This document shows positions 626 through 27,522 of a stretch of 34,973 nucleotides of DNA, piece by piece. The position numbers were made by a program, and so were the translations under genes. Origin of the DNA: Candidatus Gastranaerophilales bacterium (lineage in GTDB: Bacteria; Cyanobacteriota; Vampirovibrionia; Gastranaerophilales; Gastranaerophilaceae); contig CALVAY010000018.1 of assembly GCA_944325665.1 (NCBI GenBank), positions 1 to 34,973 on the forward strand, written 5' to 3'. The notes beneath the pieces were generated by a model. That model had not been told where the DNA came from. It was given only the letters and a program-made list of their open reading frames with translations, and did not search any database. How positions within the stretch are numbered: the first letter of the stretch is position 1; each line of letters begins with the position of its first letter.

Positions 626-2602
626 ATGAACATATATTTTATCGGAATTATTTTATTGTTTTTAAGCGGATTTATATCAGCAATTTTTAGTCAAAAAAAC
701 AAATTAAAAGTTTTATCAACCCTTTTAGCCATATCGACGCTTTTTTGTTTAAAACCCGCCGTTATGGTTTTTTTAACGGGCGAAAAACTTTCTTATGCAC
801 TGAATTTTAACCCTATATTTGGTGAAATAAGCTTTAATATAGACTATTTAAGTGCATTTTTCATTGTTGTTATATCAATAATGAGTTTGCTTTCAATTAT
901 TTATTCTAACGGATACTTAAAACCATACATCGAAAAAGGTAAAAACGTTTCTTATCATACAATGTTTTTACCTGTTTTGATTGCATCAATGATGCTTGTG
1001 GTAACAACTTCAAACGCTCTTGCTTTTCTTATTTTCTGGGAAATTATGTCCTTGAGTTCATTTTTCCTTGTTATTTTTGAAAACGAGAAAAAAGAAGTAC
1101 TGCAAGCGGGTATTAAATACCTTGTATTTATGCACATCTCGGTATTATTTATAATAATAGCTTTTGCAATTGCTTCAATTAATGCTTCAAGTTATGACTT
1201 TGCAGCATTTGTACAGGTCTTAAAAAATAACTCTCAGCTTGCAAATACGGTATTTTTACTTGCCTTTATCGGCTTTGGTACAAAAGCAGGTTTTGTACCT
1301 TTCCACAACTGGCTGCCTGAAGCTCACCCCTGTGCACCGAGCCACGTTAGTGCGGTTATGTCAGGCGTTATGATTAAAACAGGTATATACGGGATTTTAA
1401 GAATTTTATCCATGGTGGAAGAGCCGACAAAATTCGCTTCGTTCCTTGTTTTAACAATAGGCGTAATAAGTGCGCTATACGGTATTTTATACGCCATTGG
1501 TCAAAATGACTTTAAAAAGATGTTGGCTTATTCATCTATTGAAAACATCGGTATCATAGGTATAGGCATAGGCATTGGCATGCTTGGTTTAACTTATAAT
1601 ATGGAAATTCTTTCTATATTAGGTTTTTGCGGTGCAATTTTGCACATTTTAAACCACTCTATATTTAAAGAGTTAATGTTCTTAGCAGCAGGAAGCGTTT
1701 ATGTAAAAACTCATACAAGAGATATGGAAGTTTTAGGCGGTTTGGCAAAAGTAATGCCAAAGACAGCGGCACTATTTTTAACAGGCTCTGTTGCAATATG
1801 CGCTCTGCCTCCTTTTAACGGCTTTATCAGCGAGTTTTTAATATATTTTGCAATGGTGCAGGGGCTAAAAATAAATGACTTCTTTGGTCTTGTAGCAATA
1901 CTTTTATCAATCTCCGCTCTTGCTCTTGTAGGTACAATGGCTATTTTATGCTTCACAAAAGCATACAGTATAATTTTTCTTGGCATGCCAAGAAGTGAAA
2001 TAGTAGAGAAAATTAACAGCGATAATACAAAAGTTATGACTCTACCGATGGGCATTTTAGCGGGTTTTGCACTTTTAATTGGTCTATTCCCGCAATATGC
2101 ATTTAAGTTTGTGCTAAACCCTGCAAGCATAATTTTAAGCCACAATCTTGAACTTAATTCGCAAATATTTGAAATTATGCAAACAATTTCAATTTGCTTC
2201 TTGGGCTTTATTTTATTCACCTTGCTTTTACTTTTTATCAAAGCAAAGTTAAACAAAAATGTCCAAAGCTACACAACTTGGGGCTGTGGCTATGACAGAG
2301 CGAATAATTTTATGCAATACAGTGCCTCATCTTATGTAAGTCCGTTTTTGTCAATGTTAAAACCTTTATTTAAAAAAGTTTTTGATATTGAAAAACCAAA
2401 ACAACTTTTCCCTAAAAAAGCACACTTTAGCTTACATATAGATGACATTGAAGAAGCTTACGTTATTAATCCGCTTGTTAAATTTGACGAATGGTTCTTA
2501 TCAAAATTTGAAAAAATGCAAAGCGGAAACATTCAAAGCTATATTAAATACGGATTAATATTCTTGGTTGTAATTATAATTGGAAGTTTATTTATAGGAT
2601 AA
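626..2602 (+). CDS. hyfB: HyfB/NuoL-like proton-translocating membrane subunit of the hydrogenase-related complex
   Basis: An antiporter-like integral membrane subunit (about 658 residues, some 14-16 helices) of the NuoL/MrpD family, closest in type to HycC/HyfB of formate hydrogenlyase. Conserved features include the membrane Glu in WEIMSLSSF, the Lys in GFGTKAGFVPFHNWLPEAHP and a second Lys in VMIKTGIYG, which in the family form the ion channel. The reading frame extends back to a TTG at 560, but that codon lies in the promoter. ATG 626, with GGGATGG upstream and a hydrophobic start, is preferred; ATG 617 is possible. First gene of the operon, with the next gene 4 bases on. The long hydrophilic stretch near the C-terminus followed by a last helix is normal for HyfB-type proteins. 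Confidence 0.88.
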   Translation: MNIYFIGIILLFLSGFISAIFSQKNKLKVLSTLLAISTLFCLKPAVMVFLTGEKLSYALNFNPIFGEISFNIDYLSAFFIVVISIMSLLSIIYSNGYLKPYIEKGKNVSYHTMFLPVLIASMMLVVTTSNALAFLIFWEIMSLSSFFLVIFENEKKEVLQAGIKYLVFMHISVLFIIIAFAIASINASSYDFAAFVQVLKNNSQLANTVFLLAFIGFGTKAGFVPFHNWLPEAHPCAPSHVSAVMSGVMIKTGIYGILRILSMVEEPTKFASFLVLTIGVISALYGILYAIGQNDFKKMLAYSSIENIGIIGIGIGIGMLGLTYNMEILSILGFCGAILHILNHSIFKELMFLAAGSVYVKTHTRDMEVLGGLAKVMPKTAALFLTGSVAICALPPFNGFISEFLIYFAMVQGLKINDFFGLVAILLSISALALVGTMAILCFTKAYSIIFLGMPRSEIVEKINSDNTKVMTLPMGILAGFALLIGLFPQYAFKFVLNPASIILSHNLELNSQIFEIMQTISICFLGFILFTLLLLFIKAKLNKNVQSYTTWGCGYDRANNFMQYSASSYVSPFLSMLKPLFKKVFDIEKPKQLFPKKAHFSLHIDDIEEAYVINPLVKFDEWFLSKFEKMQSGNIQSYIKYGLIFLVVIIIGSLFIG

Positions 2603-2606
2603 GAAA

Positions 2607-3521
2607 ATGGAAATTATATTAAATTTACTGGTTATATTATTTGTCCCCTTTCTAATGATTGGGGTAATAAGAAAAACAAAAGCCTTCTGGGGCGGAAGGT
2701 ACGGTGCAAGCATATTTCAGCCTTTATATGATTTTGTAAAGCTAATCAAAAAGGATTATGTGATAAGCAAAACAACTACAAAAGTTTTCAGGCTGACACC
2801 TGTCATTATGCTCTCATCAATACTTTTTAGTTCGCTTTTTGTACCGATGATAGGTTCAAAAACAATAATAAACATCCCTTGCGGCTTTTTGATTTTCGCT
2901 TATATTTTAGGCTTTTCAAAGTTCTTCTCACTAATTAGTGCAATGGACACGGGAAGCAGTTTTGAAGGTATGGGAGCATCTCGTGAAGCTTGCTTTACAA
3001 CAATAGTAGAGCCTGCGTTCTTTATGCTTTTGGCTTCAATTATGGCTTTAACCGGAAATTATACGTTTGACTCATTAACCAAAATTATTGAATTTTCAGG
3101 CAGTTACGGGGTTTTAATCTGCATTTTTGCAATTTTGGTTTTATTCATAATGATTTTAACCGAAGGCTCAAGAGTTCCTGTTGATGACCCCGCTACGCAC
3201 TTAGAACTTACAATGATTCACGAAGTTATGATTTTAGACAACTCTGCAAGCGATTTGGCACTTATAAGCTGGTCGGTTGCAATTAAGATGATGCTTTTAT
3301 CTTCACTTATCGGCGCAATTATCATACCGCAAGATTTAAGCTTAGGTTTATCGACTTTATTATATCTTTTATTAATGTTTATAATTTCAATTGTTATAGG
3401 AACGGTTGAAAGTGCAATGGCAAGAATAAGAATGTCGCACGTTTTTGAATTTGTATTCATTATGAGTTCACTTGCTTTAATTGTCTTGTCCTTGGTTGTT
3501 GCAAGGATGTTTGGGGGTTAG
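2607..3521 (+). CDS. hyfC: HyfC/HycD (NuoH-like) membrane subunit
   Basis: A 304-residue membrane protein of the NuoH/HycD/HyfC family, which anchors the soluble redox arm and forms the entry of the ion path. Visible marks are the FQPLYDFVKLIKKD segment (about residues 37-50), GSSFEGMGASREA (about 116-128) and the acidic loop EGSRVPVDDPATHLELTMIHE (about 185-205), which carries the conserved Glu/Asp residues of the subunit. About eight membrane helices. It starts 4 bases after the HyfB stop and is followed 3 bases later by the HyfE gene. The assignment is secure; the physiological partner is uncertain because the large subunit is atypical. Confidence 0.9.
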   Translation: MEIILNLLVILFVPFLMIGVIRKTKAFWGGRYGASIFQPLYDFVKLIKKDYVISKTTTKVFRLTPVIMLSSILFSSLFVPMIGSKTIINIPCGFLIFAYILGFSKFFSLISAMDTGSSFEGMGASREACFTTIVEPAFFMLLASIMALTGNYTFDSLTKIIEFSGSYGVLICIFAILVLFIMILTEGSRVPVDDPATHLELTMIHEVMILDNSASDLALISWSVAIKMMLLSSLIGAIIIPQDLSLGLSTLLYLLLMFIISIVIGTVESAMARIRMSHVFEFVFIMSSLALIVLSLVVARMFGG

Positions 3522-3524
3522 AAA

Positions 3525-4178
3525 ATGGAAAACGGCTTTATAATATTATTTGGTCTTACAATGTTATATTTAGCTGCAACCAGCAGAATTGTTTCGCACA
3601 TCAGACTGGTCGCACTTCAAGGGATTTTGTTGTTCTTGATTTGTGCTTGCAATTTTGAACATCAAAATGCACTTAATATAGCGTTTTTAACGGTTGAAAC
3701 ACTAATTGTAAAATCAATTGTAATTCCTTGGTTTTTATTTAAAGTATTTAAAAGAGCAAAAGCAAACAGGGATGTAAGTGCTAATATTCCACACTTCTAT
3801 TCTCTTGTTGTAGCAAGTATAATCTTAATTTTAGGCTTTTTGATACCTAACTATTATAACGCTTCGGACACAATGAAAATGATTTCGCCAATTTATTTTG
3901 GTGTTTCAATTTCAACAATAATAATAAGCTTGTGGTTAATTACGATTAAACACAAAATCATCTCTAACGTAATTGAATTTATTACAATGGAAAACGGTAT
4001 TTTTCTTCTTTCCTTATCCGTTGCAAAAGAAATGCCTGTTTTAGTTAATTTAGGGGTGCTTTTGGATGTATTTATCGCAATTTACATCTTAGGTTTGTTT
4101 ATTAACGAAATTAACAGAGAATTTAAAGACTTAGAAGTTTCAAATTTATCGGATTTGAGGGACGACAATAATGATTAA
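3525..4178 (+). CDS. hyfE: HyfE-like membrane subunit
   Basis: A 217-residue polytopic protein with about seven helices and a short charged C-terminal tail. Sequence character and position between HyfC- and HyfF-like genes match hydrogenase-4 component E, a subunit related to the N-terminal part of HycC together with NuoK-like helices. A conserved-looking Glu lies in the segment VETLIVKS. It overlaps the next gene by 8 bases, indicating translational coupling. The family call relies partly on gene order, because HyfE proteins are poorly conserved. Confidence 0.8.
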   Translation: MENGFIILFGLTMLYLAATSRIVSHIRLVALQGILLFLICACNFEHQNALNIAFLTVETLIVKSIVIPWFLFKVFKRAKANRDVSANIPHFYSLVVASIILILGFLIPNYYNASDTMKMISPIYFGVSISTIIISLWLITIKHKIISNVIEFITMENGIFLLSLSVAKEMPVLVNLGVLLDVFIAIYILGLFINEINREFKDLEVSNLSDLRDDNND

Positions 4179-5601
4179 TACAATTTTGATATTTCCAATT
4201 ATAGCCTGTATTTTAATGGGTCTAATAAAGAAAAAAGCTTTTGACTGTGCTATGGTAAACGTGTATGCGGTTTTGCACTTCGTTGCATCTTGCCTTCTTG
4301 CCTGCGGAATTGGCAAACTCGGCAATATACCTTACTTTACGGTAGATAATACGAATATTATTTTCCTTTTAGTGCTTTCATTGGTATTTTTAATGGTTGC
4401 CTTCTACAACAGCAACTACATAAGAAACTTAGAATATGAAGACAAAAAAATAGGCCATTATTCTTTTATGATAATGGTATTTGTTCTTGCTATGACAGGA
4501 ACGATATTATCCAGCAATTTAGGTATTGCTTGGATTTTTGTTGAAGCAACAACTCTATCAAGTGCTTATTTAATATACTTCAACAAAACAAAACACTCTA
4601 TCGAAGCGGCTTGGAAATATGTTTTCATCTGTTCAATCGGTATTGCACTTGCTTTTGTTGGTATAATCTTCTTAAATATCGCACAAGGAGATATTAACAC
4701 ACTTGATTTTGCTCAACTATACAAACACGCCAGCGCTTTTGACCCCTTCTGGTTAAAGCTTGCGTTTGTATTTATGTTATTCGGTTTCGGTACAAAAATG
4801 GGTCTTGCACCTGTACACTACTGGCTTCCTGACGCACACTCCGAAGCCCCCTCGCCAATATCAGCCCTTTTATCGGCTACACTTTTAAACTCTGCATTTT
4901 TAGTAATTATAAGGGTGTTTAAAGTTTTAGACATAGCACAATGCGACAAGTGGGCAAGAATAATGTTCATAATCGTCGGCTTTGTTTCGCTTTTTGTAAC
5001 GGCAGTTTTTGTATATCACATTAAAAACTACAAAAGAATGCTTGCTTACTCATCAATTGAGAATATGGGTATTTTGGCAATAGGTACAGGTCTTGGCGGA
5101 GCAGCACTTTATGCGGTTGTTTTACATTTAATCGGACACTCTCTTGCAAAAGCTTCGTTCTTCCTAACTTCAGGAAATGTTTTAGAATTATTTGAAACAA
5201 AAAGAATAAAATCTATTAACGGATTGATGAGCGCAGACAATAAAACAGCTTGGCTTTGGATTTTATCCTTCCTTGCAATTTGCGCTTTCCCGACATCAAT
5301 TTTATTTATAAGCGAATTTTTAATCATCAAAACAATGATTATGCAAGGTCATCTGCTCCTTTGCGCATTGTTTGTACTGCTTTTAACAATAGTTCTTTGG
5401 GGTATAGCAAAAGTTGTTATTAAAATGACTTTTGGCAAATTGAGCGAAGACAAAGAAGAAACGGTTAGAGCAAATAAGAAAAAATTCTCAATACTTATGT
5501 ATCTTCCTCAAGTTATAATGCTTTTATTGGTATTTGTTTTAGGAATTTACATACCGCCATTTTTAAACAGTATGATAATCTTAGCAACAGCAGGATTTTA
5601 G
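4171..5601 (+). CDS. hyfF: HyfF/NuoM-like second antiporter-like membrane subunit
   Basis: A 476-residue antiporter-like subunit of the proton-conducting transporter family. It has a membrane Glu in IFVEATTLSSAYLIYF, the Lys-containing GFGTKMGLAPVHYWLPDAHSEAPSP segment read in two parts, and YKRMLAYSSIENMG, which closely matches the equivalent part of the HyfB-like protein (FKKMLAYSSIENIG). Two such subunits imply at least two potential ion channels, as in hydrogenase-4, and differ from the single one of FHL-1. The start overlaps the HyfE stop; the large-subunit gene follows after 9 bases. Confidence 0.88.
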   Translation: MINTILIFPIIACILMGLIKKKAFDCAMVNVYAVLHFVASCLLACGIGKLGNIPYFTVDNTNIIFLLVLSLVFLMVAFYNSNYIRNLEYEDKKIGHYSFMIMVFVLAMTGTILSSNLGIAWIFVEATTLSSAYLIYFNKTKHSIEAAWKYVFICSIGIALAFVGIIFLNIAQGDINTLDFAQLYKHASAFDPFWLKLAFVFMLFGFGTKMGLAPVHYWLPDAHSEAPSPISALLSATLLNSAFLVIIRVFKVLDIAQCDKWARIMFIIVGFVSLFVTAVFVYHIKNYKRMLAYSSIENMGILAIGTGLGGAALYAVVLHLIGHSLAKASFFLTSGNVLELFETKRIKSINGLMSADNKTAWLWILSFLAICAFPTSILFISEFLIIKTMIMQGHLLLCALFVLLLTIVLWGIAKVVIKMTFGKLSEDKEETVRANKKKFSILMYLPQVIMLLLVFVLGIYIPPFLNSMIILATAGF

Positions 5602-5610
5602 AGGTTAAAT

Positions 5611-7074
5611 ATGAATTGGATTAAATTAAAAAATAACGGAAAAATCGATATAAACTCTATACCTACTCTAAAAATTGAGCAGTTAAGAGAGGAAATTATA
5701 AACCTTAACTTAAGACCCGTGGCTTTCTTTGGTAAAGACTGGGGAAACAACACAACAAAGCTTTTTGTTGTGTTGGCGGATGATAAAAATTCAGAGTTAA
5801 ATGTAAGCTCTGCTATTTTTAATCAGGATGAAAAATGCTATGAGAGCATAACTCAAGTGCTTCCTTCGTTTCATATTTTTGAAAGAGAATTTTATGAACA
5901 GTTTGGAATAAAACCCCTTAACCATCCTTGGTTAAAGCCCTTAAGAAAAAATCAAAAGGATTATAAATTCTTTGAAATGGAAGGGGAAGAAGTTCACCAA
6001 GTAGCAGTGGGTCCAATTCACGCAGGTGTAATTGAACCGGGGCATTTTAGATTTATGTGTAACGGTGAAACGGTTTATCACCTTGAAATTATGCTCGGAT
6101 ACCAGCACAGAGGTGTTGAAGATTTAATGATTAAACATCCTTCAAACAGGCTTGCAGAGTCAATTTGCGGAGATAGTGTAATAGCAAACAATCTGGCTTA
6201 TTCAAAAGTTATGGAAACACTTTGTGATTGCAAGGTAAGCAAAAGAGCCCAACTGATAAGGACTTTAGCCCTTGAGATGGAAAGAGCTGCAATTCACATC
6301 GGCGATTTAGGCGCAATATCTGGCGATATTGCATATCTTATGGGAGCCTCGGTCTTTGGTGCAACAAGAACTCTTGTAATCAACACTATGCTTGAATTTT
6401 CAGGTAGCCGTTTTGGAAGAGGCTTAATTGAATTGGGCGGTGTTAATTTTGATATAGATAACGAAAAAATAAAAAGAGCGCTTGAAACACTTACAAAGGT
6501 TGAAAAAGACGTTGACAGAATGGTAAAAACAATGCTTAAAAACACTTCCGTTATGTCAAGGCTAGAAAAAACAGGCGTTGTAAGCAAGGAAAAAGCAGAG
6601 CAAATCGGACTTGTCGGTATGGCAGCAAGAGCTTGCGGTTTAACCTTGGATTCTCGTTTTGACTTTCCTGACGAGTGCTACAAGTTCTTAGCTCTGCCAA
6701 GAAAAATGTTTAAAGGGAAAGGCGATGTTAACTCCAGATTTAAACTAAGACACCAAGAGGCAATGGAGTCTTTAGACATTTCAAAAAGAATACTTGAAAT
6801 GCTTAAAAATACCCTTAAAGAGGAAGTTAAAACAAATTGCGAATTAAATCTTCCTAAAGATACAATGGCAATTTCAATTGTCGAAGGCTGGAGAGGCGAA
6901 ATAGTCCACATTGCCTTAACTGATATGAACGGCACTTTGTCAAAATATAAAATTAAAGATCCGTCTTTCAACAACTGGTACGGACTTGCTCTTGCCGTAA
7001 GAAATAACGGGGTTTCAGACTTCCCGCTATGTAATAAAAGCTTTAACTTATCCTACTGCGGATGTGATTTATAA
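5611..7074 (+). CDS. hyfG: Fused 30-kDa/large subunit of group-4 hydrogenase-related complex, lacking canonical NiFe ligands
   Basis: 487 residues. The N-terminal NuoC-like domain (about 1-115) contains FEREFYEQFGI at 90-100. The NuoD/HycE-like domain follows (about 125-487), with the LGYQHRGVE motif near 162-170. Group-4 [NiFe] enzymes bind nickel with two CxxC pairs. Here the first site reads ESICGDSVIANN: Cys186 is kept, the second Cys is Ser189 and the usual His is Asn. The C-terminus ends SYCGCDL, a CxC (Cys483, Cys485) replacing DPCxxC. It has no tail for a maturation protease to remove. The protein fits the Ehr type, intermediate between complex I and hydrogenases, with three unexpected cysteines. 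The family is firm; hydrogenase activity is doubtful. Confidence 0.87.
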   Translation: MNWIKLKNNGKIDINSIPTLKIEQLREEIINLNLRPVAFFGKDWGNNTTKLFVVLADDKNSELNVSSAIFNQDEKCYESITQVLPSFHIFEREFYEQFGIKPLNHPWLKPLRKNQKDYKFFEMEGEEVHQVAVGPIHAGVIEPGHFRFMCNGETVYHLEIMLGYQHRGVEDLMIKHPSNRLAESICGDSVIANNLAYSKVMETLCDCKVSKRAQLIRTLALEMERAAIHIGDLGAISGDIAYLMGASVFGATRTLVINTMLEFSGSRFGRGLIELGGVNFDIDNEKIKRALETLTKVEKDVDRMVKTMLKNTSVMSRLEKTGVVSKEKAEQIGLVGMAARACGLTLDSRFDFPDECYKFLALPRKMFKGKGDVNSRFKLRHQEAMESLDISKRILEMLKNTLKEEVKTNCELNLPKDTMAISIVEGWRGEIVHIALTDMNGTLSKYKIKDPSFNNWYGLALAVRNNGVSDFPLCNKSFNLSYCGCDL

Positions 7075-7085
7075 GGAATAAAATT

Positions 7086-7844
7086 ATGTTTGATACACTA
7101 AAATCAAGAATATATCAAGGAAACCAATTTATAAAAGATATTAAAAATGCTCCTATGAGAGAACAATTCAGGGGGCTTCCAAAACTTTGCAATTCAAACT
7201 GCAACAACTGCAAAGACTGCTTGAATGTTTGCCCGACAGGCGCACTGAAGCTTAACCCTTTATCAATCGATATGGGCAAATGCACTTTCTGCGGTGCTTG
7301 TAAAAACGTATGCAAAACAGGTGCAATAGATTTTACAAACTTCTACAAATTATCAACCACAAAAAGAGAAAACTTGATAATAACTGAAGATATGACTCAG
7401 GAAGAATTCTCAAAAATCGCAATAGAAGTCAGAAAAGAAATTAAAAGAGTTTTTGGAAAATCTTTAAAGTTAAGACAAGTGTCGGCAGCAGGCTGTAATG
7501 GTTGCGAAATGGAGCTTAACGCTTGCTCTAACGTAAACTTTGATATGGGCAGATTTGGCATAGATTTTGTCGCCTCTCCTCGCCATGCTGATGGTCTTGT
7601 AATTACGGGGCCGATTTCAAAAAATATGGCATACGCTCTTGAAGATTGCTACAAATCAACACCTGACCCGAAAATCGTTGTCTTGTGCGGTGCTTGTGCA
7701 ATATCAGGCGGAGTTTTCCAACAAAGCAGCGAACTTAACAGAGAATTTTTGGAAAAATACCCGATAGACCTATATATTGCAGGTTGCCCGGTTCACCCGC
7801 TGACCTTTATAAACGGTATTTTAGGATTTATTCAAGGAAAGTGA
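7086..7844 (+). CDS. hyfI: Ferredoxin/NuoB-like fused small subunit (HyfH-HyfI fusion)
   Basis: 252 residues. The N-terminal third carries two [4Fe-4S] ferredoxin motifs: C39xxC42xxC45xxxCP and C66xxC69xxC72xxxC76. The C-terminal part (about 120-252) is the small subunit with the proximal cluster ligands C137xGC140, C204 in LCGACAISGG and C234 in AGCPVHP. In formate hydrogenlyase and hydrogenase-4 these are two proteins (HyfH and HyfI). No separate HyfH gene exists here, so the fusion completes the electron path to the large subunit. All twelve cluster cysteines are present, so the electron wire appears intact although the catalytic site is altered. Last gene of the operon, followed by a terminator hairpin. 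Confidence 0.88.
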   Translation: MFDTLKSRIYQGNQFIKDIKNAPMREQFRGLPKLCNSNCNNCKDCLNVCPTGALKLNPLSIDMGKCTFCGACKNVCKTGAIDFTNFYKLSTTKRENLIITEDMTQEEFSKIAIEVRKEIKRVFGKSLKLRQVSAAGCNGCEMELNACSNVNFDMGRFGIDFVASPRHADGLVITGPISKNMAYALEDCYKSTPDPKIVVLCGACAISGGVFQQSSELNREFLEKYPIDLYIAGCPVHPLTFINGILGFIQGK

Positions 7845-16835: not shown

Positions 16836-18755
16836 TTAAGCTATGTAGTTTTCGTATTTGTGGTTTGGATCAATAAAGCTGTAAACCTTGTTCCATCTGT
16901 TTTGCCAACCCTTTTCAAATACTGCTTGAGAAGGATTATTTGCAACAATACCGATATATTTTTGTTTTCTTACTTCCATAAATTTATCAACATCGCCGCC
17001 TGCTTGTGCGTCCATTTTTTGAGCTGCGCCTACACCGTGGTTAACGGCTGCATCAAATACTGCAAATGCATAAGCGCTGTCGCCTGCTTGCGCGTATTTG
17101 TCAGCTCCTGAAGCTTTATAGTAGTTATTGTAATAAATTTCTTTAACTTCTTCTTGCGTAATATTTCTTACATCGGCATTATTATCGCCTTTGTAGGCTC
17201 TGTATGTAGCTTCGGTAATACCGTAATTTGTAGCACCGCCGTTGTCGTTAGGGTGATCGCTAAATCCGCCTTCATATCCTAAAACTTGACCTAACATTTC
17301 ATCGAAATCGGCACTAAAGTTGCTTTCAGCTTGCTTGTTTTCAGAAGTTTGAATTTCGTCTTCAACCTTTTTCAATTCTTCTTGAGCTGTTTTTAATTCG
17401 CCTTGTACTTCGTTTAATTTTTCGGCTTTAATTTCTTCAACAGCAGCTTTTTTATCTTCGTAATTTTTAATTGCTTCTTTTGTTTCAGGTGAACAATTTT
17501 TTTCTATTTCTTTTTGTAATTCTTCTTTCTTTTTAGTTAAATCCTCTTTTTGTTCTTCCAATTTTTCTTTTTTATCGTTTAATTCTTCAAGCTTTTCTTC
17601 AAGCTCTTTGTTAGCTTCTTCTTGTTCTTTTATTTGTTTTTCAAGTGAAGATTTTCTTTCATTAATTTTCTTGTCAGATTCTTTGTCTTCTTCTTTGCCT
17701 GTGGGTTTTGCAAGTGAAGAAAGAGCAGATTTTAAAGAAGATAGCGTATTTTCACCTTTAGTTAAAGAGCTTTCGGTTTGAGAAATTTCACTTTCGCAAG
17801 CAGAAATTTCTTCCTCTTTTTTTACTAAATCATCATTTACCTTGGTGAATTCTTCTTTAGTTTCTTTGTTTATTTTTTCATCATTTTTAATTTGTTTTTC
17901 CATTTCTTCTTTTGCAGCTTTTTCATCTTCAATTGCTTGTTTTACTTCAGGATGAGTGCCGGCATTAATTTCTGAAATTTCTTTGTTGTATTCTTCAATT
18001 TTTTCTTCAAGTTCTTCTTTTGTTTGAGCAGGAGTTTTTACTTCTTTAGCTTGAGCATTTGAAGCACTGCTGCTTGCCTTTTTAGAATTTGATGAAGAAG
18101 GAGACCAAGACGAACCTGAAGCAGGTGCATATGATACTGAAGGAGCAGTATTTGTAGCTTTTTGCTTCAAGTTTTCAATTGTATCAAGAGCATCTTGGGT
18201 AATTTTACTAAATGCGTCCTGAAAGCCTTCAAACATTTTTTCAAACGGATTGTCCATAACGCTTTGACCGGCTTTGTCAACTAGAGCGGAAATATCATCA
18301 AGCGAAATGTTCAAATCATTATTATCAAGACCTTTGATTGAGTTTAAAAAATCTTTTGCTTCTTTATCCGATATTACGCCGTCGCCGTTAGCATCAATTA
18401 CTTGTGATAGCGTATCATCGGAATATATTTTATTTAAAATTGAATAAAAACCTGCATCTTCTTTTTCGCTGTCAATCTGTTTTTCAACACTTAAACCAGA
18501 TAAATCAAGATTTTCTAAATCTTTGTATGCCTTTGTAAAAACAGACTCATCAACGCCTGTTGAGCTTGTTAGGTAGTTTTTGAAGTTCTCACCTGATGCA
18601 AAAATATCAATATCGTTTAACTTTGCAGCCTCAACAAGAGAAGAGTCTAAAGAATTAACATAAGACTGCGCTTCGCTTAGTGTCTTAGCTTTATCTGTTG
18701 AATTGGTAGAATTTTTAAAATCAGTGATAAATTGTCTAATTTTTTCAAAACTCAT
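16836..18755 (-). CDS. Large EF-hand/coiled-coil protein with C-terminal GH108 lysozyme-like domain
   Basis: 639 residues in four parts. A helical N-terminus (1-110) is followed by a region with an EF-hand calcium loop DANGDGVISDKE (121-132) and a second degenerate one soon after. A Ser/Ala/Pro-rich linker (about 205-240) leads to a long, Glu/Lys-rich coiled coil (about 245-480). A GH108 N-acetylmuramidase-like domain (about 487-639) has catalytic-type E495 in GYEGGFSDHPNDNGGATNYG. I see no signal peptide or membrane helix, so export would need another route (holin-like, type I or lysis). A ribosome site GAGAGG precedes ATG 18755. It could be an autolysin or a secreted, cell-wall-active toxin. 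Confidence 0.82.
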   Translation of the reverse strand: MSFEKIRQFITDFKNSTNSTDKAKTLSEAQSYVNSLDSSLVEAAKLNDIDIFASGENFKNYLTSSTGVDESVFTKAYKDLENLDLSGLSVEKQIDSEKEDAGFYSILNKIYSDDTLSQVIDANGDGVISDKEAKDFLNSIKGLDNNDLNISLDDISALVDKAGQSVMDNPFEKMFEGFQDAFSKITQDALDTIENLKQKATNTAPSVSYAPASGSSWSPSSSNSKKASSSASNAQAKEVKTPAQTKEELEEKIEEYNKEISEINAGTHPEVKQAIEDEKAAKEEMEKQIKNDEKINKETKEEFTKVNDDLVKKEEEISACESEISQTESSLTKGENTLSSLKSALSSLAKPTGKEEDKESDKKINERKSSLEKQIKEQEEANKELEEKLEELNDKKEKLEEQKEDLTKKKEELQKEIEKNCSPETKEAIKNYEDKKAAVEEIKAEKLNEVQGELKTAQEELKKVEDEIQTSENKQAESNFSADFDEMLGQVLGYEGGFSDHPNDNGGATNYGITEATYRAYKGDNNADVRNITQEEVKEIYYNNYYKASGADKYAQAGDSAYAFAVFDAAVNHGVGAAQKMDAQAGGDVDKFMEVRKQKYIGIVANNPSQAVFEKGWQNRWNKVYSFIDPNHKYENYIA

Positions 18756-21246: not shown

Positions 21247-21528
21247 TTATGTAAAATTTTTTTGTATATCCTCAATATACTCTTCACCCCTTAATGTCAA
21301 ATAATCCTCTGGTATAGTTGTAAAAAAGTTCTGCCCTATACCTCTTTTAGCTACTATATGCGTATAACCTAGTGTATTCAATTCATTTATAACCTCAATC
21401 ATACCGCTTACATCTTTTCTTATAAGTTCCTTAACTCCTTGATTTACTTCTAGTAATGTTTTGTTATTCTGCTTTGAGTTATATAGCAAATTTAACAATT
21501 CGTTTGTATATTCTTGACGTTTACCCAT
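21247..21528 (-). CDS. Small winged-helix-like protein of unknown function
   Basis: 93 residues. The arrangement of helices followed by a likely beta-wing (GYTHIVAKRGIGQNFFTTIP) and LTLRGEEYIEDI at the end is like small phage winged-helix proteins. It is encoded 4 bases behind an XRE regulator, so the two should be made together. It could be a co-regulator or a toxin-antitoxin-like partner; I cannot decide. Ribosome site AGGAT before ATG 21528. The last gene before the distal attachment site. Confidence 0.6.
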   Translation of the reverse strand: MGKRQEYTNELLNLLYNSKQNNKTLLEVNQGVKELIRKDVSGMIEVINELNTLGYTHIVAKRGIGQNFFTTIPEDYLTLRGEEYIEDIQKNFT

Positions 21529-21532
21529 AATC

Positions 21533-21874
21533 CTATCCCTTAATTTCCTTATTATATTTCTTTATCGACTCTATGAAATTTAAAAATAACTCTAACTCGG
21601 CATTATTAGAAGAATACACTTCTTTAATAATCTTATCCCTATTCGTATTTTTGTTTTCTTCAACTTGAAACCCAAACTCTGATAGCGGAACATTTAAAAC
21701 ATCTATTAATTTAAAAAATGTTTCAAGACTAGGCATAAAAACACCTCTTTCCAGTTTTCCATAGTGTTTTTCTGCAATTCCTATCTTTTCCGATAGTTCT
21801 TCTTGGGTTAATTTCGCCTTTTTTCTATATTCTTTAAATTTTTTGCCTAAAAATTCCTTGTCGTAAAATATCAT
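21533..21874 (-). CDS. XRE-family helix-turn-helix regulator
   Basis: 113 residues. The HTH_3 domain (about 9-65) contains YRKKAKLTQEELSEKIGIAEKHYGKLERG, read in two parts: the LTQEELSEKIG helix pair and recognition helix EKHYGKLERG. The C-terminal tail is acidic and helical. GAGGT precedes ATG 21874. It is divergent from the nuclease operon, 152 bases away, a layout typical of a regulator controlling a possibly harmful neighbour (compare restriction-modification controller proteins). It differs clearly from the element's main repressor. Confidence 0.85.
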   Translation of the reverse strand: MIFYDKEFLGKKFKEYRKKAKLTQEELSEKIGIAEKHYGKLERGVFMPSLETFFKLIDVLNVPLSEFGFQVEENKNTNRDKIIKEVYSSNNAELELFLNFIESIKKYNKEIKG

Positions 21875-22026
21875 AGGGTTGTACCTCGCTATTTTTCTTA
21901 AAATAGAATATTTATGACTACTTTTTAACTCTCTTTCTATTCCTTAACTCAAATAAGGTATATTTATATTCCTTTTTGTGTTAATATCCTGTTGAGGTAG
22001 TTAAAAAATAATGAGGTATTTGCTAT

Positions 22027-23082
22027 ATGGAATTTATTGAAAAGATTAACCAGCTAAAGGAACGCTGTTCGGCTATGAAAGACAGCTTGCAAACAGAGGA
22101 AGCAACAAAAAACGCATTAATTATGCCTTTTATTAATGCTCTTGGGTATGATGTTTTTAACCCTATAGAAGTTGTACCTGAATATATTGCGGATGTCGGA
22201 GTTAAAAAAGGTGAAAAGGTTGATTACGCAATATTAAAAGATAATAAACCGATAATACTCATTGAGTGCAAGAAAGTTGATAATAAATCTTTAGATATTA
22301 AAAAACACGCAACTCAACTTATAAGATATTTTAGCGTTACTGACGCAAAGTTTATAATTTTATCAAATGGCATTGTATATAAATTCTTTTCTGATATTGA
22401 ATCTGCTGGCAAATTAGATAATGAACCGTTTTTTACCTTTAACTTATTAGATTTCAAAGAAAATCAGATAGAAACCCTCTCTGAATTTTGCAAAGAAAAT
22501 TTTGATATAGAAAAAGCATTTTCAAACGCAGGTGATTTAAAGTATATCAAGCAATTTGAAGAAGTTATTGAAAATGAATACAGACAGCCCAGCGATGATT
22601 TTATAAGGTATTTAATAAATAAATCTGGAGTTTGTGAAGGTCGCATTACCGATAGAATTATTGAAAAACATAAAAATACTACCATAGAAGCATTTAATCT
22701 CTTTATGTCAAAAGTAATGAAAACATCCCTCGATTTTAATTTAAGCTCCAAACAAGAAACTAAAGAAACAAAAAACGAAATTATAACGACCCTTGAAGAA
22801 TTAGAAGGCTACGCAATAGTAAAAAGTCTTTTAAATGGTGTTGTTGATACAAAAAGAATAACATATAGAGATAATGCAAGCTATTTTAATGTTTTGTTAG
22901 ATGATAATATAAGAAAAACTATATGTAGACTATATTTTAACCGCTCTCAAAAATATATAGCATTTGTAAAAGATAAAAAAGAAGAAAAAATTGCTATTAA
23001 TTCTATTGATGATATATTTAATTTTTCCGAACAGATAAAAGAAAAAATTAATGAAATATTGGCTGTACAATCAAGTAATTAA
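22027..23082 (+). CDS. PD-(D/E)XK nuclease of the HsdR-N / predicted type IV restriction family
   Basis: 351 residues. The N-terminal nuclease domain (about 20-160) shows the PD-(D/E)XK core: D66 in KVDYAIL, then E80-C-K82 in ILIECKKVD, and the Gln of HATQLIRYF. This matches the HsdR N-terminal type 2 domain found in standalone predicted type IV restriction enzymes (COG2810-like). The C-terminal part (about 175-351) ends in a beta-rich domain with YIAFVKDKKEEK and may bind DNA. No methyltransferase is adjacent, so it would act on modified or foreign DNA, or under another control. GAGGT is about 10 bases upstream. The two next genes follow at 11 bases and then 5-11 bases. Confidence 0.8.
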   Translation: MEFIEKINQLKERCSAMKDSLQTEEATKNALIMPFINALGYDVFNPIEVVPEYIADVGVKKGEKVDYAILKDNKPIILIECKKVDNKSLDIKKHATQLIRYFSVTDAKFIILSNGIVYKFFSDIESAGKLDNEPFFTFNLLDFKENQIETLSEFCKENFDIEKAFSNAGDLKYIKQFEEVIENEYRQPSDDFIRYLINKSGVCEGRITDRIIEKHKNTTIEAFNLFMSKVMKTSLDFNLSSKQETKETKNEIITTLEELEGYAIVKSLLNGVVDTKRITYRDNASYFNVLLDDNIRKTICRLYFNRSQKYIAFVKDKKEEKIAINSIDDIFNFSEQIKEKINEILAVQSSN

Positions 23083-23093
23083 GGAGGTATATA

Positions 23094-23408
23094 ATGTATT
23101 GTAAGAATTGTGGAAAAGAAATAGATGATAAAGCGGCAATATGCGTTCATTGTGGTGTACCAACTGGGAATTCGGCATATACTCTAGGTAACAAAAATTG
23201 GGTAACTGCTTTGTTGCTATGTTTATTTTTGGGTGGGATGGGTGCTCATAGGTTTTACACTGGACACACAGGAACAGCTATTTTGCAATTAATTTTAACG
23301 TTCTCCTTTTTTGGTCTTATAATTTCAGCACCTTGGGCTTTGATAGATTTAATTTATATAATATGCGGTAAGTTTAAAACCAGTGATGGTTATGAACTTT
23401 CAAGATAG
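23094..23408 (+). CDS. Zinc-ribbon plus TM2-domain membrane protein
   Basis: 104 residues. An N-terminal zinc ribbon (CKNCGKEIDDKAAICVHCG; C3, C6, C17, C20 region) is followed by a TM2 domain: two helices (about 36-50 and 60-90) with the conserved FLGGMGAHRFYTGHTG between them. TM2 proteins are small membrane proteins of poorly known role. AAGGAGG precedes the ATG. It is in one transcript with the nuclease and a second zinc-ribbon protein, so it probably belongs to the same cargo module. Confidence 0.85.
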   Translation: MYCKNCGKEIDDKAAICVHCGVPTGNSAYTLGNKNWVTALLLCLFLGGMGAHRFYTGHTGTAILQLILTFSFFGLIISAPWALIDLIYIICGKFKTSDGYELSR

Positions 23409-23419
23409 GAGGAATGAAA

Positions 23420-23902
23420 ATGTTTTGTCCAAATTGCGGAAAAGAGATTGACGATAAAGCCGTTATGTGCCCTTATTGTCAGAAAGAATTAATAATAAAA
23501 TCTAAAAACAATATTGGTAGAAATATTGCTGTAGGTTGTCTTACACCAGTAATAATTCTAATTTTAATGGCAACAATTCCATCTTTTATGGAGGATGGCT
23601 CCAATAATTCAATAAACAACAAGACAAAATCAAAGCCAAAATTAGAAGTATTGAATTCGCATAATTGTAATATATCGTCATACGGCGGTAGGGCTATTTG
23701 TGGAACCGTTATAAACAATACAGATAGAACATACGGATATGCACAAATTCAAATTAATCTGTACGACAAAAATGGAACACAAATCGGAAGTACAATGGAT
23801 AATATAAATAACCTAGCTCCACATACCAAATGGGATTTTAAAGCTATGGTTGTCGAAGATAGAGCTGATAACTACAAAATCATTGATGTATCAGGATTTT
23901 AA
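23420..23902 (+). CDS. Zinc-ribbon, single-helix protein with FxLYD-like C-terminal domain
   Basis: 160 residues from ATG 23420, chosen because AGGAGG (23407-23412) sits 7 bases before it and only one base before the alternative ATG 23414. A zinc ribbon CPNCGKEIDDKAVMCPYC starts the protein, nearly identical in pattern to the gene before it. One membrane helix (about 32-50), then an extracytoplasmic beta domain with GTVINNTDRTYGYAQIQINL and YDKNGTQIGS, matching FxLYD domains. It may sense or bind an envelope partner. It converges on the packaging-like genes with a 7-base gap and no visible terminator. Confidence 0.8.
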   Translation: MFCPNCGKEIDDKAVMCPYCQKELIIKSKNNIGRNIAVGCLTPVIILILMATIPSFMEDGSNNSINNKTKSKPKLEVLNSHNCNISSYGGRAICGTVINNTDRTYGYAQIQINLYDKNGTQIGSTMDNINNLAPHTKWDFKAMVVEDRADNYKIIDVSGF

Positions 23903-23909
23903 TTAATAT

Positions 23910-24287
23910 TTATCTTGTTTGTTTCGCTATAATACCAGCTACAATTTGCTGTGCTTTGGTTTTAGCTTCAAGTGTTGGTGATAAACTCATTGTCTTTTCA
24001 ATGGGTTTTTCACCTATTGTATTTTGTATAAATTCAACCGCCTTTAAATCGCCTGAAAGAGCCTTTTTAACAACTTGAACCATAATAGCTTCTTTTGTGC
24101 TTTTTAACATTCCTGATTGTTTTAAATCCTGTGATAATAAGATTTCTAATATCTCACGCATTTTGCGTTTTTCTAATCTGACTATTCCTGATTTTTTCCC
24201 GCCTTGTTTTGCAATCAACCTCTGTTCATTCACTGTTAATTTATTAAAAGGTTTTAAATTTTCAACTTTAGGCTGTTTATTTGACAT
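23910..24287 (-). CDS. Small phage-type protein, packaging (TerS-like) candidate, copy 2
   Basis: 125 residues, basic and helical. It shares with its upstream neighbour an N-terminal PFN(K/E)L segment, GGxKSxxVRxE(K/R)(K/R) near residues 29-42 and the xIGEKP motif (about 91-95), so the two arose by duplication. The pattern resembles small phage-borne proteins often found near terminase genes, but I cannot place it in a named family. A TerS-like packaging role would fit the satellite layout. AGGAG precedes ATG 24287. Only 2 bases separate the two genes. Confidence 0.6.
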   Translation of the reverse strand: MSNKQPKVENLKPFNKLTVNEQRLIAKQGGKKSGIVRLEKRKMREILEILLSQDLKQSGMLKSTKEAIMVQVVKKALSGDLKAVEFIQNTIGEKPIEKTMSLSPTLEAKTKAQQIVAGIIAKQTR

Positions 24288-24289
24288 TC

Positions 24290-24649
24290 TTATAACTCCT
24301 TTAGTTTATCCATAACTTTATTTATAGTTTTTTCGTCTATTTCGCCTGTTATGTGTTGTGCGATTGTGTCTGTTGGTTTTTCTCCTATACTTGCTTCGAT
24401 TGCCTGATATGCTTGTACTTTACCCCTTATAGCTTCATTTATAAGAGATAAGCATATTTTTGTTTGCATTGTTTTACCTGTTTTATCCTTGCTTGCAAGT
24501 AAATAAAGCAACTCATCTTTCAAGCGTTTTCTTTCTTGCCTGACAAGAGCGGATTTTACACCGCCCTTTTTCGTGATTTCTTTTATAGCTTCTTTTGAAA
24601 GCTCATTAAATGGTATTAAATTTTCTGTTTTGGGATTTTTATTTGTCAT
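24290..24649 (-). CDS. Small phage-type protein, packaging (TerS-like) candidate, copy 1
   Basis: 119 residues from ATG 24649, which has GGAGG 6 bases upstream; an in-frame ATG at 24667 lies above that ribosome site and is rejected. Paralogue of the next gene (GGVKSALVRQERKRL versus GGKKSGIVRLEKRKM, and IGEKPTDT versus IGEKPIEK). Helical with a short, acidic C-terminal extension. The start overlaps the 3' end of the small membrane protein gene by 11 bases. The function is as uncertain as for its twin. Confidence 0.6.
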   Translation of the reverse strand: MTNKNPKTENLIPFNELSKEAIKEITKKGGVKSALVRQERKRLKDELLYLLASKDKTGKTMQTKICLSLINEAIRGKVQAYQAIEASIGEKPTDTIAQHITGEIDEKTINKVMDKLKEL

Positions 24650-24875
24650 TTTGTACCTCCGAAACATAAATATTTTGTTGGTGATTGCTAAAAATTTTCT
24701 TAAGAATTTGTATGTTGCAATAAAAACAGAAATTAAACATAATTACAAATATTAGCAAAATTGCAATTAGTAATTTGTGTTCCCTTATTCTTGTACGTAA
24801 ATCAGCTAATCTATTAAGATAAATCTCTGTTACGATTTCTTCATTTAGAATTTTTTGTTCATTTTGTTTAGTCAT
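24639..24875 (-). CDS. Small membrane protein of the element
   Basis: 78 residues from ATG 24875, which has AAAGGAGAA upstream; the frame extends to 24932 but without a ribosome site. A charged N-terminal half is followed by one membrane helix (about 34-53) with Phe/Cys-rich FNFCFYCNI and a soluble tail. No family recognised. It lies between the replication genes and the packaging-like pair and overlaps the latter by 11 bases. Confidence 0.6.
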   Translation of the reverse strand: MTKQNEQKILNEEIVTEIYLNRLADLRTRIREHKLLIAILLIFVIMFNFCFYCNIQILKKIFSNHQQNIYVSEVQNDK

Positions 24876-24970
24876 TTTGTTTTCTCCTTTTAGTATTCTG
24901 TAAATATTCTTCACTTCTGTGATTACTTTCAATGATATTTCTATTATTATTGATATGTACTTAACAGCTC

Positions 24971-25043
24971 GTTAACCATTTGTTGACGAATTTATCAACA
25001 ACTGTTAACAAACTCGTTAACACTGTTAATTAGTTTGTTTAAC
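24971..25043. repeat. Iteron-like cluster, candidate replication origin of the element
   Basis: Copies of GTTAAC or a one-base variant begin at 24971, 24982 (GTTGAC), 25004, 25016, 25025 (GTTAAT) and 25037 (GTTTAAC). Spacings are mostly about 11 or 22 bases. Two copies extend to CTCGTTAAC and two to ACTGTTAA. They overlap the 3' end of the replication-initiation-like gene, where SaPI-type origins also lie close to the rep gene. Confidence 0.5.
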
Positions 25044-25507
25044 TCCTCTGATTTTGCCAGTTCTCCCTTTGATTCCGCTTTTTTTAGTAAATCTTCAAGA
25101 GCTATTACTATTTCATACAATTCTTTATTAAATTCCGCAGTGAAAAGCACCCAAAGGTCTGGCTTATTAAGTAGCTCTCGCTCTCTCAACATAGTTTTAG
25201 AAAGGGTTATTGGGCTTTTAATTGTGCCTTTTGTATATCTAAAAAATTTATGGATAAAAATTAAATTTTCATCTTGCCATAACCTTATAATATTTAGCTT
25301 GTGCATTTCTTTTAATATTTTTACAACTTCTATTTCATCAATGCTACAATCCGTCGCAATATAGGACGGCTTAACCCTGCATATCCCCATTTGAGTTGTA
25401 AAATTGTTCGTAAGAAGATAAAGATATATCAGCTTGCCATTATTGCCTAGTTTATCAAAACAGGAGCTAGTCCATATACTTTTATAAACTGGATAATAAT
25501 TTCCCAT
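24995..25507 (-). CDS. Replication-initiation-like winged-helix protein (phage replisome organiser type)
   Basis: 170 residues. The N-terminal part (YYPVYKSIWTSSCFDKL...GKLIYLYLLTNNF, about 4-37) and following winged-helix region, with CRVKPSYIATDCSIDEIEVVKILKEM (about 43-68, read in two parts), have the pattern of phage replisome organiser/DnaD-like N-terminal domains. The C-terminal tail is helical and low in complexity. GGAGG precedes ATG 25507. The 5' end overlaps the primase-like gene by 26 bases. The last codons are written by the iteron-like cluster. It probably recognises the origin of the element. Confidence 0.7.
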   Translation of the reverse strand: MGNYYPVYKSIWTSSCFDKLGNNGKLIYLYLLTNNFTTQMGICRVKPSYIATDCSIDEIEVVKILKEMHKLNIIRLWQDENLIFIHKFFRYTKGTIKSPITLSKTMLRERELLNKPDLWVLFTAEFNKELYEIVIALEDLLKKAESKGELAKSEELNKLINSVNEFVNSC

Positions 25508-26429
25508 TTTGAACCTCCCGTAAGCATTTTTTAGCCGTTCTTATTAAATAATCCGCTCTTTCTATTTTTAACTTGTGCAAATGGTCTTTTTGTATTGCAT
25601 AAGGGCTTAATTTAAATAATTCAATAGCATTGGCAATATCATAGCCATTCCAATATAAAATTTTAGACATTAACCCTAAGTCGTTGCAGCTTTCGTCATT
25701 AGAGTATCTTTGACCGTTCCACATTTTTAAAAATTTCAAATCTCGTTTTAACCCTAAATCAAATTTATTTGTGTGAATTGCTTTGCCTGTAAAAACTCTT
25801 TTATCTTCCTTTTTAAAGTATTTTTTATAAAAAATTTCTAATTCTTTTTGTAGATTATTTAGAATTTTGTTATGAGATAAAGCATTTGCAGTTAAGGCAA
25901 TATATCTATTTGAATCATAGCATTCCAAAGATTTACACCAATTAAAAGTGTTTATTTTACAACACCAATCAGATTTTTTCCTTCCTACAAACAATATGTG
26001 AATACCTTTCCCACTTTTGCTGATTTCAATATAGGCATTTTGAAATAGCTGTAAAATTTTTTCGGCTTCTTGCGTGATATTGCCAGCTTTATCTATGCAG
26101 TTATCTATGTCTATTGCACAAATATTACCAATTTCGGTATCGGTTAAAATCAAACCTATTCCATCTGCATTTTTAAATTGCTCTAACGCATTTAAAGCGG
26201 TTTTGAGGTCTGCAAAATGCTGTTTACTGTGTATACCAATCTTTTTACCAGTTACAGGACTTAAAGGTCTTTTTTGAGCATCATATAGAATAAAAATTCT
26301 ATCATTTTTAATGAAATAAAAATTTTGAAGAAGATTATTGTAATTGCATTTGAGCGTATTTTTTGCTACACTATTAATATCGCTTGTGCTTTTACTATTA
26401 TTGGTAAAAGCATTTTTCATTTTTAACAT
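25482..26429 (-). CDS. Primase-polymerase-like protein of the element
   Basis: 315 residues from ATG 26429, with GGGAGG just upstream; the frame reaches 26459 but that start overlaps the excisionase gene and has no ribosome site. A prim-pol (AEP)-type catalytic domain (about 30-215) shows the acidic pair AIDIDNCID (D107, D109), SKSGKGIHILF (about 138-148) and a later ECYDSNRYIALT. A helical domain after about residue 230 has LMSKILYWNGYDIANAIELF, seen in primase C-terminal domains. There is no helicase domain in this protein, so host or partner helicase would be required. First or second gene of the leftward operon. Confidence 0.75.
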   Translation of the reverse strand: MLKMKNAFTNNSKSTSDINSVAKNTLKCNYNNLLQNFYFIKNDRIFILYDAQKRPLSPVTGKKIGIHSKQHFADLKTALNALEQFKNADGIGLILTDTEIGNICAIDIDNCIDKAGNITQEAEKILQLFQNAYIEISKSGKGIHILFVGRKKSDWCCKINTFNWCKSLECYDSNRYIALTANALSHNKILNNLQKELEIFYKKYFKKEDKRVFTGKAIHTNKFDLGLKRDLKFLKMWNGQRYSNDESCNDLGLMSKILYWNGYDIANAIELFKLSPYAIQKDHLHKLKIERADYLIRTAKKCLREVQNGKLLSSL

Positions 26430-26439
26430 ATTTACCTCC

Positions 26440-26637
26440 CTAATCTTCTGATTTACCATTTAAAAAATCAACGAGTTTTTCGACATTCACGAGAATTTTT
26501 TTACCAGCTCTCACATTTTTAATCTTATTTTGCAAGGCTAGCTGTCTAATGAAATGTTTAGCCAGCCCTGTTATGGTCGCCGCTTCATTAATTGTTGCCA
26601 TTTTCGGAACCCTAAATTCTAAAACGTCTTGTGTCAT
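26440..26637 (-). CDS. Excisionase-like helix-turn-helix protein
   Basis: 65 residues. A MerR-like/excisionase winged helix: ATINEAATITGLAKHFIRQLALQNKI (residues 14-39, read in two parts) followed by the wing RAGKKILVNVEKLVDFL. Such proteins bind DNA at attachment sites and steer integrase to excision, or activate the operon. AAAGGAG precedes ATG 26637. First gene of the leftward operon, divergent from the repressor, in the position of xis or the early activator of SaPI-like islands. Confidence 0.8.
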   Translation of the reverse strand: MTQDVLEFRVPKMATINEAATITGLAKHFIRQLALQNKIKNVRAGKKILVNVEKLVDFLNGKSED

Positions 26638-26691
26638 TTTTGTTTCTCCTTTTATTTTGTAATATTGACAGCAAATTTATTGTGATGTATT

Positions 26692-26821
26692 ATTTCTTTT
26701 GAGAAATGTTTATAATGTTTATTTCTTTTAATAAATATAGCATAGCTTTTTACAATTTCTTATTTTTTGCGATTAAAGAAATTTCAAGAATTTTACAAAC
26801 TTACAATTTCTTGAAAGAAAG
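26692..26821. promoter_or_regulatory. Divergent control region with three similar 16-bp operators
   Basis: Consensus ATTTCT-N4-AGAAAT. Site 1 (26692-26707) is perfect. Site 2 (26721-26736) has one mismatch, ending ATAAAT. Site 3 (26806-26821) ends AGAAAG and touches the repressor ribosome site (about 26819-26825). Further half-sites lie at 26755 and 26777. The likeliest ligand is the XRE repressor encoded to the right. Confidence 0.6.
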
Positions 26822-26829
26822 AGGAACAA

Positions 26830-27522
26830 ATGAAAAAGAATAACGATAAAACAAAATACGAAAGAGAAAACTTAAAACACCATATTGCAGAATGCCTTTA
26901 TGATTTAGTTAATGATACAAAAATTAGCAAAAACTTGAGTAATGCCGAACAGGCTCGAGAAATAGGAATAAAAGATACGACATTATCAAAAACAATAAAT
27001 GGTGGAACTCTACCTGATAGTTATACAATATATAAGTTAGCTCAATATTATAAGTATGATAACGAATCCATTACAAGCGATTATATATTAGGACTTAGTA
27101 AAAATAAAACAGCAAGTAACACTAATATAAGTAAAGAAACTGGCTTGTCAGATAAAGCGATAGGGGTTTTGAAAAATGTAGAAAACATGAAAGAGAAAAA
27201 CCCAACATTATATTATAAGCAATATGCGTTAAATTATTTAATTGAAAATATGAACAATACGGAATTTTTAGGGCATTTATACTATTATTTGTTTGCAATT
27301 GCTTCATTTGAATATGGCAATGAAGAATTATTAGCACGACCGATTAAATACAAACTTGGTCATAATGAAGAATCAATGAAAAGGGCTACAACAAGAATAT
27401 TAGACCAAAATGACATTTCCGACTTGTATTTTTCAAAAATTCAACAAGATATACATAGTTTAAAACTTTTATTAGAACAACAAGAGGTGGTAAATGGCAA
27501 ACGTTCAAGAAAGAAGGAATAA
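26830..27522 (+). CDS. XRE-family repressor of the element
   Basis: 230 residues. An N-terminal helix-turn-helix (about 36-85) with LSNAEQAREIGIKDTTLSKTI is followed by a larger helical C-terminal domain. There is no Ser-Lys peptidase pair of LexA/CI-type repressors and no metal site, so it is not obviously a self-cleaving repressor. In SaPIs the comparable Stl repressor is relieved by a helper-phage protein. GAAAGAGG precedes the ATG. The integrase gene overlaps it by 29 bases. It likely represses both its own gene and the excisionase operon. Confidence 0.75.
   Translation: MKKNNDKTKYERENLKHHIAECLYDLVNDTKISKNLSNAEQAREIGIKDTTLSKTINGGTLPDSYTIYKLAQYYKYDNESITSDYILGLSKNKTASNTNISKETGLSDKAIGVLKNVENMKEKNPTLYYKQYALNYLIENMNNTEFLGHLYYYLFAIASFEYGNEELLARPIKYKLGHNEESMKRATTRILDQNDISDLYFSKIQQDIHSLKLLLEQQEVVNGKRSRKKE

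Follow-up and report, generated by a model that had tools for sequence, protein, structure and literature searches.

Energy-converting-hydrogenase-related (Ehr) complexes are known from Geobacter (PMC7894505) and from Nitrospira, whose complexes are devoid of the CxxC motifs; they occur in hundreds of species. Gut Melainabacteria were reported to encode a six-subunit membrane-bound NiFe hydrogenase devoid of hydrogen-binding motifs (Di Rienzi et al. 2013, PMC3787301, citing Marreiros et al. 2013), and Ehr was found in four Melainabacteria genomes by Matheus Carnevali et al. 2019 (PMC6349859). A literature search on the energy metabolism of Gastranaerophilales returned nothing further. Here, we analysed an operon of this kind on a single contig of 34,973 bases (the window, used throughout for the whole stretch of DNA analysed), which belongs to a 1.65 Mb, 97%-complete genome in 30 contigs. 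The genome is that of a gut Gastranaerophilaceae (Melainabacteria), and its nearest named relatives, among the matches listed, are Candidatus Gastranaerophilales/Melainabacteria MAGs.

A complete six-gene operon of the Ehr type

The operon occupies positions 626–7844, is complete and lies on one strand, with the large subunit gene in fifth place:

626..2602, + strand, HyfB-like antiporter-type membrane subunit (NCBIfam hydrogenase 4 subunit B, 570 bits, under the equivalog cut-off; Proton_antipo_M)
2607..3521, + strand, HyfC/NuoH-like membrane anchor subunit (Pfam NADHdh, 1.1e-31; aligned with NuoH, HyfC and HycD)
3525..4178, + strand, HyfE-like membrane subunit (NCBIfam hydrogenase 4 membrane subunit, 2.7e-18)
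4171..5601, + strand, HyfF-like antiporter-type membrane subunit (NCBIfam hydrogenase 4 subunit F, 5.2e-97)
5611..7074, + strand, EhrL/HyfG-like large subunit with fused NuoC-like and NuoD-like domains, without the [NiFe] ligand pairs
7086..7844, + strand, small subunit with a 2[4Fe-4S] ferredoxin domain (NuoI/HyfH-like) fused to a NuoB/HyfI-like domain

The open reading frame of the HyfB-like gene extends over 560–2602 and opens with TTG, and the ATG at 626 matches the starts of its relatives. The proteins scored under the equivalog cut-offs of the hydrogenase-4 and Nuo models, a result to be expected of a sister group. Antiporter-like, NuoH-like and HyfE-like membrane subunits are thus combined with a large and an Fe-S small subunit and no NADH module, a composition shared, together with a large subunit lacking NiFe ligands, with described Ehr complexes (Geobacter sulfurreducens, PMC7894505; Marreiros et al. 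2013). In alignments, equivalents of NuoM E144, K234, K265 and E407 are all present in the HyfB-like subunit; the HyfF-like subunit has E144, K234 and E407, with Asn at the K265 position, as in E. coli HyfF.

No partner gene is conserved beside the operon in the Gastranaerophilales loci, and the operon appears self-contained. The O-acetylhomoserine sulfhydrylase gene adjacent to it in the window was considered as a clue to the substrate and set aside, as it is not a conserved neighbour. At 27 loci of other phyla, the Ehr operon is preceded, on its own strand, by a gene of ~235 amino acids whose product begins with an excisionase-like helix-turn-helix (for example, L046:2247-2918 and L053:2241-2948); none was found in Gastranaerophilales loci. 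As a guess from its sequence, the C-terminal half of this protein may be PTS-IIA-like.

Elsewhere in the window, inspection by reading only showed helix-turn-helix regulators, small phage-like genes and a tyrosine-recombinase-like integrase (27494–28744) at 21247–28744, probably an integrated element, and, at 16836–18755, a coiled-coil protein with an apparent peptidoglycan-hydrolase (GH108-like) C-terminus, EGGFSDHPNDNGGATNYGIT.

The large subunit has lost its [NiFe] ligand pairs

The large subunit gene starts with ATG and encodes 487 residues, which match Complex1_30kDa (residues 40–111) and Complex1_49kDa (residues 251–486). Two stretches take the place of the hydrogenase ligand motifs in the alignment:

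6166..6177, + strand, CGDS (residues 186–189) replacing the CGxC ligand motif
7051..7071, + strand, C-terminal SYCGCDL (residues 481–487), with S481 and G484 at the ligand positions

Residues 186–193 read CGDSVIAN, compared with CGICGFAH in HycE/HyfG and CGICSFSH in MbhL, and the His that follows the motif is replaced by Asn193; the C-terminus reads NLSYCGCDL, compared with DPCYSCTDR in E. coli HycE. HycE C241, C244, C531 and C534 correspond to C186, S189, S481 and G484, so that three of the four [NiFe] ligand positions are replaced, and the fourth, C186, varies among relatives. Both the N-terminal CxxCxxxH and the C-terminal DPCxxC of group 4 [NiFe] hydrogenases are therefore missing. The last residue falls at the position of HycE R537, with HycE running 32 residues further; the C-terminal extension of HycE is cleaved off by the HycI protease in hydrogenase maturation.

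The same loss was found throughout the family: the ligand pairs are absent from all 17 orthologues in other genomes of the family (50–85% identical), and the nearest relative, in an independent congeneric genome, carries CGDS and SYCGNDL, which rules out a sequencing error at the motif. Between these two genes dN is 0.115 and dS 1.37 (dN/dS ~0.08), indicating that the large subunit gene is maintained. A first-pass annotation of this DNA, made from the sequence alone, had described a hydrogenase-like large subunit without NiFe cysteine pairs, with CGDS for CGxC, no His and SYCGCDL for DPCxxC; comparison with HycE, HyfG and MbhL and the 17 orthologues agrees with it in each of these respects, and the sequence error that it had named as a caveat is not the case.

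The three remaining cysteines are not conserved as a set

The same annotation had proposed that the three cysteines retained near the site, C186, C483 and C485, might bind something else or mark an evolutionary intermediate. Of the three, C186 does fall on a true ligand position, and 30 of 35 aligned Ehr sequences have Cys at 483, which would speak for a new metal site. However, the HycE residues opposite C483 and C485 are S533 and T535, off the ligand positions; the residues at the C-terminal ligand positions, S481 and G484, are invariant among the 35 sequences. None of the three cysteines is conserved family-wide: position 483 is Cys, Ser or Ala within the family, and, among the 35, position 485 is Cys in the window only, with Asn, Phe, His or Arg elsewhere. 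At position 186, 24 of these sequences have Ala and nine have Cys; the residue is Cys, Ser or Ala in the Gastranaerophilaceae orthologues, and outside the Gastranaerophilales clade mostly Ala, with Ser, Val or Gly in plasmid-borne lineages. Since Ala prevails in the outside lineages, C186 is probably secondary rather than a relic of the [NiFe] site, and the idea of an intermediate loses its footing. The AlphaFold model, with pLDDT below 50 at residues 483–487, is unable to place C483 and C485 or to show a site. On conservation and alignment register, we rejected a metal site formed by these cysteines, to which we now give almost no credence. That they have no metal-ligand role is part of the overall reading set out below, which, taken as a whole, we regard as somewhat more probable than not.

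Retained residues of a proposed proton path and a hydrogenase-like fold

Other residues of the large subunit are kept, among them one in the following loop:

6010..6045, + strand, beta1-beta2 loop GPIHAGVIEPGH (residues 134–145), located by alignment

Here and for the proton-path and canopy residues below, residue roles are taken from PMC9474812 and PMC7684303. E142 in this loop corresponds to HycE E193 and MbhL E21 and is invariant in Ehr. With H229, R340, E383 and R428, the large subunit has the residues of the proposed proton path, and R428 (the canopy Arg), H229, R340 and E383 are kept in nearly all Ehr; the canopy Asp position is Asn or Asp. The quinone-site residues of complex I are not retained: the position of Nqo4 Y87 is an invariant Gly (G187), and that of Nqo4 H38 is I141. 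The AlphaFold model of the large subunit (pLDDT 91) is of low confidence mainly in loop 135–143 and the last five residues, and its best match among solved folds is E. coli HycE in formate hydrogenlyase (7z0s_E; TM 0.87, 25% identity).

Iron-sulfur ligands of the small subunit

All 12 ligand cysteines of clusters I and II and the proximal cluster are present in the small subunit of the window, the proximal four with hydrogenase-like CxxC spacing. The earlier statement that the small subunit keeps all iron-sulfur ligands therefore holds for the window, but not for many relatives, which miss cluster I ligands: C39, C42, C45 and C76 are partly or wholly gone, with cluster II and the proximal cluster kept, at L021-L026, L028, L029, L031-L033, L035, L037, L038, L076, L077, L086, L096 and L099.

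The intact proximal cluster bears on a comparison with the sulfane-sulfur reductase MBS of Pyrococcus, which is driven by ferredoxin, as our complex probably is, and is likewise a relative of complex I that lacks H38/Y87 and a complete NiFe site (PMC7684303). MBS, however, needs a three-Cys proximal cluster and a shortened loop (PMC7684303), where the window has four Cys at CxxC spacing, and it carries an Mrp-type Na+/H+ module whose subunits are absent from our operon, with its only two antiporter-like subunits. As the four proximal cysteines make MBS-like sulfur chemistry less likely, we consider a sulfane-sulfur reductase very unlikely here.

A separate departure was seen at seven loci (L050, L057, L061, L078, L082, L089 and L100), all labelled Bacteroidales, Bacteroidetes or Bacteroidia, where the four proximal [4Fe-4S] ligand positions read D-C-D-N. 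These small subunits contain the motifs GDNSCE, G(T/I)DAISGG and PGNPxHP with cluster II intact; their large subunits are unremarkable, and the small subunit gene lies downstream. If these replacements are real, such Ehr would apparently lack a NiFe site as well as a normal proximal cluster. Other losses of proximal ligands occur at L068 (N/E/E/W) and L098 (D/V/C/W). A literature search for complexes without a proximal cluster returned nothing further.

Phylogeny and distribution

An IQ-TREE phylogeny of 46 NuoD-domain sequences, midpoint-rooted and with some long branches, separated the NiFe-less large subunits from NuoD, HycE/HyfG and MbhL by a 100/100 branch. On the NiFe-less side are sequences from Gastranaerophilales, Bacteroidota, Spirochaetota, Planctomycetota, Thermodesulfobacteriota, Variovorax, Rhizobium and others, and the Gastranaerophilales large subunits form one clade (100/98). 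The window's large subunit groups here, outside NuoD and the true hydrogenases, in a tree without published Ehr references of the kind of Geobacter EhrL. Together with the absence of HypD (below), this placement upholds the Ehr affinity suspected in the first-pass annotation and supports, at the sequence level, the identification of the gene product as an Ehr large subunit. Relatives are encoded on at least 583 contig stretches of the genome collection.

Operon organisation varies among them. One Gastranaerophilales contig (L024:8001-10279) has Ehr large and small subunit genes with no membrane subunit genes directly upstream. In genome G015, a small subunit gene (L127:3973-4710) stands without a neighbouring large subunit gene and a search of that genome turned up no Ehr-type large subunit, so that the operon seems to be decaying there.

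A probable ferredoxin-linked ion pump

In the view that we favour, the six subunits form a membrane-bound complex that is related to complex I and group-4 hydrogenases, has lost [NiFe] and would work as a ferredoxin-linked ion pump with an acceptor in the cavity; we hold this to be somewhat better than an even proposition. Reduced ferredoxin would hand its electrons to the small subunit's ferredoxin domain, from which they would pass through the proximal [4Fe-4S] cluster into the former hydrogenase cavity. There, a small acceptor rather than a bound metal site would be reduced, with the invariant E142 providing protons, while the two antiporter-like subunits would pump H+ or Na+. The leading guess for the acceptor is a hydrophobic small molecule, such as a scavenged quinone. 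Since many relatives have lost cluster I, ferredoxin is uncertain as the donor for the group as a whole.

Gene content of the family narrows the choice of acceptor

We compared gene content across 60 Gastranaerophilaceae genomes, including the window's own, family by family, with HypD standing for the hyp genes. The Ehr large subunit occurs in 18 of the 60, patchily even inside genera. HypD was found in none of them, with a positive E. coli control; the first-pass annotation had suggested looking for hyp maturation genes. A separate NuoD-like protein is present in 15 of the 60 genomes, five of these with Ehr; our genome has none. PF01512 matches number at most one per family genome, and the single match in our own is HydB, the neighbour of a HydA6-type [FeFe] hydrogenase, which leaves neither NuoF nor RnfC in this genome.

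Within the ferredoxin-linked pump, the acceptor might be a quinone, the complex acting as a ferredoxin:quinone oxidoreductase like photosynthetic complex I, with which it shares superfamily and architecture. A distant MenA-like prenyltransferase of the UbiA family in our own genome (59 bits against a cut-off of 277) speaks for this idea; UbiA-family proteins occur in 58 of the 60 genomes, with or without Ehr. Against it stand the missing H38 and Y87 equivalents and the absence of MenD above cut-off, MqnA/D and cytochrome bd from all 60 genomes. De novo menaquinone synthesis was rejected, as all MenD matches fell under the cut-off, the weak one in our genome being acetolactate synthase, and MqnA/D are absent; any quinone would need scavenging. 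A scavenged or unusual quinone is thus a rather unlikely form of the ferredoxin-linked pump.

The complex has also been proposed to run in reverse, proton-motive force pushing electrons uphill to give reduced ferredoxin for [FeFe] hydrogenase (Di Rienzi et al. 2013, PMC3787301), and our genome does hold one HydABC-type and one B1-type [FeFe] hydrogenase. For this direction, no donor is known at the old NiFe pocket. Ehr also occurs where a PF02906 [FeFe] hydrogenase is missing, in four of five such genomes, compared with 14 of the 55 that have one (Fisher p = 0.025); this association with the missing hydrogenase is weak, the four genomes coming from three genera. We regard reverse operation as distinctly unlikely.

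A third possibility, a formate dehydrogenase-Ehr complex, has been suggested for Riflemargulisbacteria and Saganbacteria and, with greater doubt, for some Melainabacteria (PMC6349859), and Ehr is raised on formate in Geobacter (PMC7894505). PF00384 molybdopterin oxidoreductases, however, are found in none of the 60 genomes, our own included; we rejected a formate dehydrogenase partner, which is refuted for this genome barring an assembly gap and has next to no probability.

For the ferredoxin-linked pump, we counted the operon and its protein families, the ligand-less relatives, the 100/100 clade, the HycE-like fold, the absence of HypD, the intact iron-sulfur ligands of the window, the kept proton-path and antiporter residues, the lack of NuoF, RnfC and a partner gene, and, weakly, the distribution relative to PF02906. 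Operon composition, ligand loss at all but one position, HypD absence and the iron-sulfur and antiporter residues can be read directly from the sequence. Counted against it were the missing complex I quinone residues, the absence of MenD, MqnA/D and cytochrome bd from the 60 genomes, the cluster I losses among relatives and the patchy occurrence of Ehr within genera.

For gut Gastranaerophilaceae in general, it is a tentative possibility that Ehr is a ferredoxin-driven ion pump operating without [NiFe], self-made quinones, formate dehydrogenase or an NADH module; if true, it would use a terminal acceptor new to the complex-I superfamily. The family narrows the choice of Ehr acceptor, having no HypD, formate dehydrogenase-type enzyme, menaquinone-synthesis marker or cytochrome bd in the 60 genomes, and the presence or absence of Ehr among close relatives makes it useful for asking what the former hydrogenase pocket reduces.

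Comparison with known systems

With E. coli hydrogenase-3 and -4 (HycE, HyfG), the complex shares the fused NuoC-NuoD large subunit, the EPGHFR loop, the canopy Arg and the best fold match; it lacks their CGIC and DPCYSC ligands, C-terminal extension and hyp genes (HypD searched). Fold and position in the complex are shared with NuoD/Nqo4 of complex I, whose Tyr87/His38 equivalents and NuoEFG are missing here. Relative to other Ehr, Cys at position 186 is common in the Gastranaerophilales group only, in a comparison whose tree held no Geobacter sequence. The complex is apparently the system of Di Rienzi et al. 2013 (PMC3787301), with which lineage, subunit number and motif loss agree, the sequences being matched by description only. 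The finding itself is therefore known already, Ehr in this lineage having been reported in 2013; what is new is the corrected register of the cysteines, their non-conservation and the gene-content table.
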